Positions 11,819 to 14,800 of a DNA stretch of 49,538 nucleotides are shown one piece after another. A program made the translations under genes and the position numbers. The notes below the pieces were generated by a model. That model searched no databases. It was not told the DNA's origin and saw nothing but the letters and a program-made list of their open reading frames with translations. The DNA lies in assembly GCA_016872645.1 (NCBI GenBank), contig VGZH01000042.1, positions 1-49,538 on the forward strand, read 5' to 3'. This DNA is from Planctomycetota bacterium. Its GTDB lineage: Bacteria; Planctomycetota; Planctomycetia; Planctomycetales; Planctomycetaceae. Within the stretch, counting starts at the first letter, position 1. Each line of letters opens with the position of its first letter.

Positions 11819-14800
11819 GTGAAGTGGTCTTTGCTCTGCCTGACGCTGATGGGGTTTGGTGTTTCGGTCGAGGCGATCAACGCTCAGGACTACGTCCGGC
11901 ATTCGTTCGAGCGGCAGCAGCTCACGGATGTGTATTTCTCGGAAGGGGCGAACTTCGGGGACATCAACCAAGATGGAAAGCTCGACGCCATTCACGGGCC
12001 CTATTGGTGGCAAGGGCCGGAGTTCAAAGTGCGGCGCGAGATCTTTGCTCCCAAGCCGCAGAATCGGGACGGTTATTCAACGAACTTCTTTACCTGGGTC
12101 TATGACTTCACGGGCGATGGCTGGAACGATCTCGTGAGCGTCGGCCTGCCCGGTTCAGCGGCGGTGCTCTACGTGAATCCGGGTGAAGGGAAGGTGCTTG
12201 ACGAGGCGAATCACTGGCAGACTCAGAAGGTGCATGACGGGATCGGTAATGAGTCACCGCAGTTCGTGAACCTCATCGCCGACAAGCAGCCGGAGTTGGT
12301 TTGCAATCACAACGGCAAGTTTGGCTACCTGACGTTCGACGTGAAGAAGCCGGCCGAGCAATGGGTCTGGCACGTCATCTCGGAACAAGTCGGCGAGTAC
12401 CCGTTCGGGCATGGTCTCGGCGTTGGCGATGTGAATGGCGATGGCCGCGCCGACGTGATCTGGAAAGGTGGCTGGTACGAGCAGCCGAAGTCGCTCGACG
12501 GCGATCCGCTGTGGGTGTTCCACAAATACCAGTTCGCCGGGCCGGGCGGTGCGGACATGTTCGCTTATGACGTCGATGGCGACGGAGACAACGACGTCAT
12601 CACCAGTCTGGCAGCTCACACTTATGGACTCGCGTGGTACGAGCAGGTGAAAAACGGCGATGCGATCTCGTTCAAGAAGCATCTCATCATGGGAGAAAAG
12701 CCGGAGGACAATCCGTATGGCCTCCTCTTCACGGAGCCGCACGCGGTCGAGCTGCACGACATGGACGGCGACGGGCTGAAGGACATCGTCACTGGTAAAA
12801 CGTATTGGTCTCATCATCGACAGTCGCCGATGTGGGATGCGGGAGCAGTGGTGTATTGGTTCAAGCTCAGTCGGGGAGAGAAGTCAGAGGAAAAGCAATC
12901 AGCCTCAACCGTTGACTGGATTCCGTACCTCGCCGATGGCGAAGCGGGGATCGGCCGGCAACTCAACATCGCGGACATCGATGGCGACAAGTTGCCGGAG
13001 ATCATCGCGGGGGGCATGGTCGGGGCGCATGTCTTGCGGCATCGAGTGAAGTCGGTGTCGAAGGAAGAATGGCTCGAAGCTCAGCCGTTGAAGAAGAAGC
13101 CGATTGCGATGGCGGACGGACTCTCTCCGCAGGAAGCCGCGAAGCAGATGACGGTGCCGCCGGGGTTCAAGGCGTCGCTGGTCGCGGGCGAGCCGCTCGT
13201 GCATCAGCCGGTCGCGTTCACGTTTGATGCGCGCGGACGGATTTGGGTCGCCGAGGCTTACACCTATCCGAATCGAGCAAAGGAAGGCGAAGGGAAGGAC
13301 AAGATCGTCATCCTCGAAGACAAAGACGGTGACGGGTATCACGAGACTCGCAAGGTCTTCATTGAGGGACTGAATCTCGTCAGCGGTTTGGAAGTCGGCT
13401 TCGGCGGCGTGTGGGTCGGGGCGGCTCCGTATTTGATGTTCATCCCGGATCGTGACGGGGATGATGTGCCGGACAAAGTTAAGAGTGGAGAATCGACAGT
13501 CGAGAGTAAGACACAAGACAAGAATGCCGCGACTCTCAACTCTCAACTCTCAACTCTCAACTTTCCAAAAGACGTTCCCGAAGGCACGACCGTCCTCCTC
13601 GACGGCTTTGGCTGGCAGGACACGCATGAGACGCTCAATGCGTTCATCTGGGGCCCGGATGGGTGGCTCTATGGGTGTCACGGAGTCTTCACGCATTCGA
13701 AGGTTGGCAAGCCGGGGACGGCGGATAAAGACCGGACCCCGATGAACGCGGCGGTGTGGCGATATCACCCGACGAAGCATGTCTTCGAAATCTTCGCGAA
13801 CGGAGCCAGCAATCAGTGGGGTGTCGATTTCAACGAGCACGGGCACGCCTTCATCACGGCCTGCGTGATTCCGCATCTGTATCACGTTATTCAAGGGGCG
13901 AGGTATCAGCGGCAAGGAGGTCAGCACTTCAACCCGTACACGTTCGACGACATCAAGACGATCGCCGATCACCAGCATTACGTCGGCAACTTGCGTGACC
14001 ACGCTTGGTGGGGCCACGAACCGCACGCTCCGGCCGACACGTTGGCGGCGGGGGGCGGGCACGCTCACGCGGGGGCAATGATTTATCTCGGCGACAATTT
14101 CCCGCCGCAGTACCGCAACACGATCTTCATGTCGAACATCCACGGCAACCGAATCAATCAGGATTTGCTGGTTCGCAAAGGCTCCGGGTACGTCGGCAAG
14201 CACGGCAAGGATTTGCTGATCGCCAACGACCGCTGGTTCCGAGGCATCAACCTGAAGACCGGCCCCGACGGCAGCGTGTACGTCATCGACTGGTACGACA
14301 AAAACGCCTGCCACCGCACGAACTCGGAAATCTGGGACCGCACGAACGGGCGCATTTACAACGTGCGGTATGTGGGGGCCGAGGGGCGAGCGGCGAAGGG
14401 TGAGAGGAAGGCCACGAACCTCGCGAAGCTCAGCGATCAGGAGTTGGTCGATCTCGTGCGGCATCCGAACGAGTGGCATTCGCGCATGGCGCGACGACTG
14501 CTGCAAGAGCGAGCCGCGAAGCTCGATGACGAAGGCGTCCAGAAATTATTCGCGCTCGTTGCTTCGTCGATGCCCGCGGACAAGGACAAGCCGCTCGATG
14601 CGGAACTGACTCGGCAGACGTTGCGGTGCATGTGGACCATGCATGCCATGTCCTCGAACCGGGACATTCCGATCATGAGTTCCACTTTCCTGATTGACGC
14701 TTGGATTTCGATGCCCGACGAGTCGATCCGCGCGTGGGCGGTGCAGCTCGCCGCCGAGGATACGAAGACTCTGCGATTGCCCACGGCGTTCACTCATTTC

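Follow-up and report, generated by a model that had tools for sequence, protein, structure and literature searches.

The heptamer hairpin at positions 13475–13564 of the window (by which we mean the whole 49,538-nt stretch of planctomycete DNA analysed) lies in frame within a conserved dehydrogenase gene and is missing from the gene's relatives. We think it rather probable (roughly 60%) that it is a locally growing repeat, built by slippage and template switching and neutral in a spare loop of a propeller protein. One expects genes to exclude simple repeats with a unit length not divisible by three; here 7-mers sit in genes no less often than random windows do, frequently as hairpins, and the same protein loops, even in UvrA, are filled by unrelated repeats in related species. 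Such loops form a ready-made series in which the growth of hairpins, the matching of their arms and their disappearance can be measured, reveal where these proteins take 10–40 additional residues, and warn that planctomycete linker residues may be repeat DNA instead of evolved sequence.

The hairpin and its host gene

The hairpin, its parts and its surroundings are as follows:

11618–16678, plus strand: host gene with FG-GAP repeats, a DUF7133 beta-propeller dehydrogenase and cytochrome c, 1686 aa as listed (Pfam; propeller by structure prediction and Foldseek)
11637–11734, no strand assigned: imperfect hairpin of GTGCAAA-like 7-mers, score 19.5 in the gapped inverted-repeat search
13475–13564, plus strand: heptamer hairpin, 30 codons, KVKSGESTVESKTQDKNAATLNSQLSTLNF
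13475–13507, plus strand: left arm, rich in purines, its units degenerate GAGAGTY
13508–13531, plus strand: hairpin loop, 24 nt
13532–13564, plus strand: right arm, rich in pyrimidines, with perfect ACTCTCA ×4.4 in 13532–13562

The two 33-nt arms pair at 27 of 33 positions (82% complementary) around the 24-nt loop, and a Tandem Repeats search returns the ACTCTCA array of 13532–13562 with period 7, 4.4 copies and 100% match, in agreement with the paired arms and the four perfect ACTCTCA copies described in an earlier note on this DNA. That note had also read the element as 30 in-frame codons free of stops, and this too holds, the hairpin beginning at a first codon position (13475) of ORF 11618–16678 and its 90 nt making 30 codons. 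One of the six arm mismatches keeps the reading frame open, as the fifth codon is GGA where a perfectly matched left arm would give an in-frame TGA. The element runs from AAAGTTAAG to CAACTTT, with no GTAG or CGTC tag at its palindrome ends, and no inverted repeat of at least 10 nt is reported inside either arm, the arms being tandem 7-mers with no inner palindrome.

Folded as RNA, the 130-nt hairpin region reaches −39.2 kcal/mol against −29.87 (sd 3.39) for shuffles (z −2.75), none of the 200 shuffles being equally good. An ungapped hairpin search overlooked most imperfect in-gene copies, and a gapped inverted-repeat search was therefore adopted; in it the window hairpin scores 18, and shuffles of about half of the 849.5-kb own-genome sample gave five inverted repeats at a score of at least 14, one of those at 15 and none at 16 or more. 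Rfam at the gathering score has nothing at the hairpin, and within the window only RNase P and one tRNA; the RNase P RNA (5716–6138, minus strand) is of class A.

The true start of the host gene is probably downstream of the listed 11618, to judge from a signal-like sequence lying further downstream. The GTGCAAA-like hairpin covers the 3′ end of the upstream gene (10392–11663) and precedes this likely start. DUF7133 is matched in two stretches, the best of which stops at residue 623, four residues inside the insert, and a HEAT match in the protein falls short of the cut-off. An AlphaFold2 model of the dehydrogenase region (47 rows) is a propeller with mean pLDDT 65 and pTM 0.71, in which the insert is placed between strands 95–100 and 148–152; its first 20 residues have pLDDT of about 50, and those that follow have higher values and are drawn with a short helix. 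The fold of this model, itself of modest confidence, resembles soluble PQQ glucose dehydrogenase (Foldseek, best E 7e-8, TM about 0.5), and searching by sequence gave no solved relative of the region at E up to 1.

Repeat turnover at the dehydrogenase linker and in UvrA

The region is matched in 39 of the 40 genomes searched, the own genome (G000) included, and an orthologue of at least 85% identity is present in 10 of 11 congeners, the eleventh (G009) having distant paralogues only. One congener contig (G008) starts within the linker array, leaving nine congeners with a whole linker. The earlier note had considered that close homologues might all carry the same 30 residues, or that the genome might hold no further copies of the arms. 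Neither is what we observe: the 30 residues of the window occur in none of the nine congeners (of which G006 and G007 are nearly alike), and related arrays are found elsewhere in the genome (see below). Four of the nine have another inverted repeat in the linker (score at least 13), namely GGAGGTTGGGCACTC in G001, CCGGGGGGCGTCAGCCCCCCGGT in G003, and GTAG-type REP dimers with different stems in G002 and G010; one (G004) has an 8-mer array without a clear inverted partner; and four (G005, G006, G007, G011) have no clear repeat, with no inverted repeat confined to the linker. The view that a repeat element is tolerated here within coding sequence stands, and the orthologous site is hairpin-free or otherwise filled in relatives.

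The size of the insertion needs to be stated with more care than before. The DGDDxPD–LLDGFG segment is 20 residues long in 31 of 73 rows, the more distant homologues, and for these it is correct that family members pass straight from one motif to the other; the nearest relatives mostly have 37–44 residues there, ending ..FPKDVPxGATVLLDG. With 55 residues in the window gene and 38–40 in hairpin-free congeners, the net gain is 15–17 codons, not 30, and the claim of exactly 90 bp inserted was overstated. The linker has diverged, and the exact ends of the insert are unreadable. Rows without a hairpin may be long too (51–69 residues in L174, L177, L179 and L190).

In a wider survey of 83 loci (the best 80 of 136 plus L011, L013 and L028; 370,866 bp of gene, 82 loci with the DTHE anchor), 24 inverted repeats of score at least 13 lie inside the gene. 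Twelve of the 82 anchored loci carry one at the linker site and 70 have no clear hairpin there; a second site, +764 to +891 from the anchor, holds five repeats, a third (−1078 to −991) holds two, and the remaining five lie elsewhere or span the linker with long loops. The inverted repeats of L120 and L175 (scores 13–14, loop 101) extend past the linker and were excluded from the site count, and L028 (G015) has a weak inverted pair only. No sequence is conserved among the hairpins at the linker. The public records behind L120, L121, L124, L125 and L182 bear improbable names (Candidatus Kuenenia stuttgartiensis, Planctomyces sp. SH-PL62). For a tree we took 84 loci, dropped 11 without the motif, and used 42 of the remaining 73 with three outgroups (45 rows), leaving the insert out. 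On these 45 rows at least nine changes are required for repeat presence and at least 12 for repeat family. Good support is found for 15 of the tree's 42 inner branches; its three outgroup rows are not a clade, and L028, a long row, is unsure. Relative to no-repeat rows, the hairpin label clusters on the tree no more than shuffled labels do (77 of 500 as low).

UvrA provides a second case. In nine of the genus' twelve genomes (own included; 56.6 kb of gene) it contains 27 in-frame inverted repeats of score at least 15; UvrA of G000 and G003 could be read only as 1327 and 830 codons, and no full UvrA gene of such kind was obtained from G005, G007 or G008. Twenty-six of the 27 fall at seven recurring sites, six of them used in three to five species and the seventh in one, with weaker repeats at these sites in further species and with repeat families that differ between species. 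The remaining hairpin, near the start in G002, may precede the true start, and UvrA of G000 has no repeat at a score of at least 15, its best copy scoring 10. The gene is a single frame of about 2300–2450 codons in seven of the nine genomes (L269 G006:C58, L271 G009:C124, L277–L282, L205) and holds up to five in-frame hairpins. At site 2 the G006 protein has 45 residues where solved UvrA 9gxk has two between aligned blocks.

G006 and G009 are syntenic over 13 kb around UvrA, mostly at 87–91% identity, and can be compared site by site. At site 2 their 26-nt loops are alike (two differences) and their arms measure 34 and 10 nt, a difference of 24 nt per arm; the arms are long in G002, whose loop begins identically, so the change may be a loss in G009. 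The earlier suggestion of an expanding element therefore finds support in kind, with loss as the possible direction, and not in the window copy itself, for which we found no strain-level pair showing change. Site 3 has a hairpin in G009 and none in G006, the arrays at site 7 differ between the two, and a TGCAAAT array differs by 21 nt (three units) in frame. A GTAG REPIN is present in G009 and not G006 about 50 nt before the likely UvrA start, probably in intergenic DNA. Across the UvrA sites, arm likeness averages 0.43 within species (26 pairs) and 0.33 between species (205 pairs); these bare means hint that arm sequences may spread inside genomes.

Period-seven arrays in the genus

Arrays were counted as clusters with at least 17/20 matches at each lag. 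In 720,000 bp of unselected stretches of the own genome there are 20 arrays of period 7, 0–2 at each other period from 4 to 13, and seven at the harmonic 14; unselected stretches yield nine period-7 arrays in 240 kb of G006 and four in 200 kb of G003. With all stretches included the count rises to 28 in 849,538 bp of the own genome (at most two at each other period 4–13 and 10 at the harmonic 14) and 17 in 311 kb of G006 (14 at period 14); the lower figures of 20 and 9 leave out those chosen by hits (the window, L201 and L202 in the own genome, L269–L273 in G006) and those placed off the contig start (L057, L208). A stricter cut of 18/20 matches retains 17 and 12, respectively, and shuffles give none at period 7. 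Outside the genus, in 200 kb each, G012 has four period-7 arrays (and three at period 12) and G015 none, both being of the same family, and G038, of the same class, has none and shows periods 9, 12 and 15 as in ordinary coding repeats.

Among unselected stretches, period-7 arrays lie in genes in 14/20 (own genome), 6/9 (G006) and 2/4 (G003) cases, compared with 6/57, 13/56 and 12/63 for other inverted repeats (Fisher 1e-6, 0.015 and 0.19, the last, for G003 alone, not significant); over all stretches the figures are 19/28, 14/17 and 2/4 against 6/63, 17/70 and 12/63. The in-gene rule is a heuristic, a long open frame with high GC3, which accepts 52%, 62% and 61% of random windows. These counts argue that 7-mer arrays are not barred from genes, whereas REP-like hairpins mostly are. 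The stop-free sense units of in-gene arrays were discarded as evidence, as they follow from the gene-calling rule. A 7-mer that contains no stop triplet is translated into one repeating heptapeptide whichever frame is read, so that any number of units is stop-free and only the total length must fit, and such arrays can thus outlast expectation within genes.

Pairing is frequent. Counting all stretches, hit-chosen ones included, an inverted partner lies no more than 100 nt away from 18 of 49 arrays, making 14 hairpins, and 12 of these 14 are purine-left and pyrimidine-right, one is opposite and one ambiguous. The 849,538 bp of own genome contain 73 inverted repeats of score at least 15, against two in shuffles. 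Eighteen own-genome ACTCTCA/GAGAGTC loci were inspected (L219–L226, around further matches, being left out): at 12 the array is in frame within a gene and the other six are intergenic, unsure or single chance units. Nine of the in-gene hosts were named by Pfam, namely UvrA, MoeA, DUF58, PolIII-alpha/PHP, squalene-hopene cyclase, a PQQ-repeat protein and three DUF1549/DUF1553 proteins. A reversed-pattern control was void, as ACTCTCAACTCTCA is identical read backwards.

The window itself has three further arrays, each with its own unit and with no hairpin partner found:

18026–18054, minus strand: period-7 array GTTCCGA, in frame in a 747-codon open frame
24606–24634, plus strand: period-14/7 array (CGAAATC-like), in frame in a 1026-codon open frame, in an RPxVP..NPID linker
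26283–26316, plus strand: period-14/7 array (GCCATCA-like), in frame in the same 1026-codon open frame

The array at 24606–24634 has a lag-7 score of 9/14, under the cut-off used. In the DUF1549 linker RPxVP..NPIDxFV, lag-7 arrays occur in five of eight cases from three congeneric samples (one from a chosen contig), and arrays at lags 5, 6 and 8–10 in none of the eight; the 7-mer units differ among paralogues and congeners (window 24606, L203 1843, L227 17912, L236 5310, L272 7765, L306 15512). A degenerate array at 22931–22971, to which Tandem Repeats Finder assigns period 16, lies in frame within a minus-strand open frame of 659 codons.

Origin of the hairpin and comparison with known repeats

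A locally growing hairpin would arise as follows. Genomes of the genus contain tandem arrays of period seven and hardly any of other short periods, a pattern of the genus rather than of the window copy. An array may then turn into an inverted pair, as one case in a close species pair suggests, and template switching between the arms may keep them matched while slippage adds or removes units; the template-switch step is supported at one locus. Copies that keep the frame open in loops and linkers, where they are indeed located, would presumably persist under selection, here in a loop predicted between two strands of a PQQ-dehydrogenase-like propeller. Different relatives have unrelated units or REP dimers at the same places, which shows repeated turnover of the site. 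No host function is indicated for the hairpin. Template switching between inverted-repeat arms is known in coding DNA of yeast, where it makes arms alike within genes; as described in the sections of PMC8604942 drawn on here, that process concerns short inverted repeats and works via substitutions, not array growth. Simple fold-back copying does not predict the purine-left polarity of 12 of the 14 hairpins, and this polarity, with the hint of species-wide families, suggests that more than local slippage may be involved.

The earlier note had also raised mobility. A possible though doubtful source is a palindromic mobile element (REPIN or Rickettsia-palindromic-element type) that a transposase acting in trans copied whole and that then decayed. 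In its favour, GTAG-REP dimers occupy the same linker in G002 (L124), G010 (L013), L126, L143, L182 and L183, the GTAG REPIN before the likely UvrA start separates G009 from G006, and the own genome has a single Y1 transposase (RAYT-like, PF01797; L276, G000:C144) with GTAGGGTCGGCTCCCGCC dimers on both flanks, a family with an in-frame copy in another dehydrogenase too (L045 8943–9012, within a large gene). The window hairpin, however, is not a GTAG-REP: its arms have neither tag nor inner palindrome. The linker has diverged too far for a clean empty site or a target duplication to be read. No transposase linked to the hairpin was found, and since the sole Y1 gene adjoins another repeat family, a transposase route for the window copy was dropped. 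At those ACTCTCA loci compared by eye, some copies only, heptamer units are in common and loop sequence is not. Rickettsia palindromic elements form families with a consensus over the whole element, in contrast to the heptamer unit that is all we saw in common among the copies compared here. They too are in-frame palindromes in conserved genes, tolerated by the protein (cited in PMC3733652).

Intragenic GTAG/CGTC REPs, palindromes in ORFs whose dimers encode 20–30 residues, likewise count uvrA, and also DnaE2, among their targets, and the recB genes of two Xanthomonas species carry different REPs at about the same place (PMC3733652). The window element differs from them in lacking the GTAG/CGTC tag and the inner palindrome and in consisting of tandem 7-mers; according to that report, other genes belonging to one category have their REPs at differing sites (PMC3733652), while in our genomes the same sites recur.

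A functional element, with an RNA hairpin or peptide that regulates translation, folding or decay or is bypassed by the ribosome, seems unlikely to us. The RNA fold exceeds all 200 shuffles (z −2.75) and some hairpin stands at the same place in several relatives, but no clear hairpin is found in G005, G006, G007 and G011 or in 70 of the 82 anchored loci (best 80 of 136 plus three), and the hairpins have no conserved sequence. Bypassing would not require an open frame, yet the frame is kept open through the hairpin.

We give similarly low credence to a dedicated activity that would write DNA in sevens, purine-left when paired, into protein linkers, that is, an enzyme-made, frame-indifferent generator of peptide linkers in place of ordinary slippage. 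The near-exclusivity of period seven would fit such an activity; also compatible with it are the variety of units that paralogues and close species show at one linker and the presence of arrays in genes, where they are no rarer than random windows.

Slightly less credible still is an exchange of arms, by which the loop would be ancestral linker and both arms would have been swapped around it in concert. The loops of G000 and G002 are weakly like the linker of G011, which has no hairpin (47 and 9 of 2000 shuffles did equally well), and at UvrA site 1 a loop is common to G002 and G009, the latter having lost an arm. With 20 comparisons made, homology of the dehydrogenase loops was set aside as weak. 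Among 24 UvrA loops, likeness is barely higher for pairs from one site than for pairs from different sites (means of 7.2 and 6.4), and the best four same-site pairs are also alike in their arms. Exchange looked suggestive by eye at UvrA sites 1, 2, 3 and 7 and was rejected, as loops there are alike only where arms are alike, except for G002/G009 at site 1. An assembly or binning artefact is very improbable: the source assembly comprises 213 contigs, and a contig of G008 starts inside the array of this linker, but the repeat lies mid-contig with the frame open through it, and comparable arrays occur at the same places in independent genomes.

Other heptamers are among the nearest known parallels. 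Heptameric repeats are over-represented in bacterial genomes (PMC4692102), heptanucleotides are the commonest long simple repeats in most genomes (work cited in PMC4679880), and heptamer-derived satellites occur in bacteria (PMC6749651). Those of Xanthomonas (GGGAATC) and Nostoc resemble ours in being head-to-tail 7-nt units in several copies (four most commonly), dispersed, with 70 and 75 cases of two convergent arrays forming an inverted repeat (PMC4692102). The portion of that study used here describes one unit family per genome, where in our case the unit varies by locus, and a location that is mainly intergenic (89–93% in xanthomonads, 68% in Nostoc, with under-representation on the coding strand of ORFs); this is a tendency and not a definition, set against 22 of our 33 unselected arrays in frame within genes (PMC4692102). 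The TAACTGA heptamers of Beggiatoaceae are dispersed like ours but, as far as the consulted part of the report goes, are mainly intergenic and of one fixed unit, direct except for one inverted case (PMC4679880). Already known, then, are heptameric repeats with inverted pairs (Xanthomonas) and REPs inside uvrA and DnaE2; for the combination of locus-specific 7-mers, often hairpins, mostly in genes, and filling the same protein loops in relatives, our searches of an open-access library gave no report, nor did they yield one of heptamer hairpins within genes of Planctomycetota, though this does not prove that none exists. Palindromic coding repeats of Mollicutes (PMC2996958), and template switching together with RNA hairpins (PMC8794818), have reportedly been the subject of separate studies.

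The window also holds two long REPIN-like hairpins, at 38193–38311 and 44044–44133, which belong to one family (GGAGTGCGGTGTGTCAGCACCGC) and were not called in a gene. This family recurs in the own-genome sample and beside the Y1 transposase in L276.
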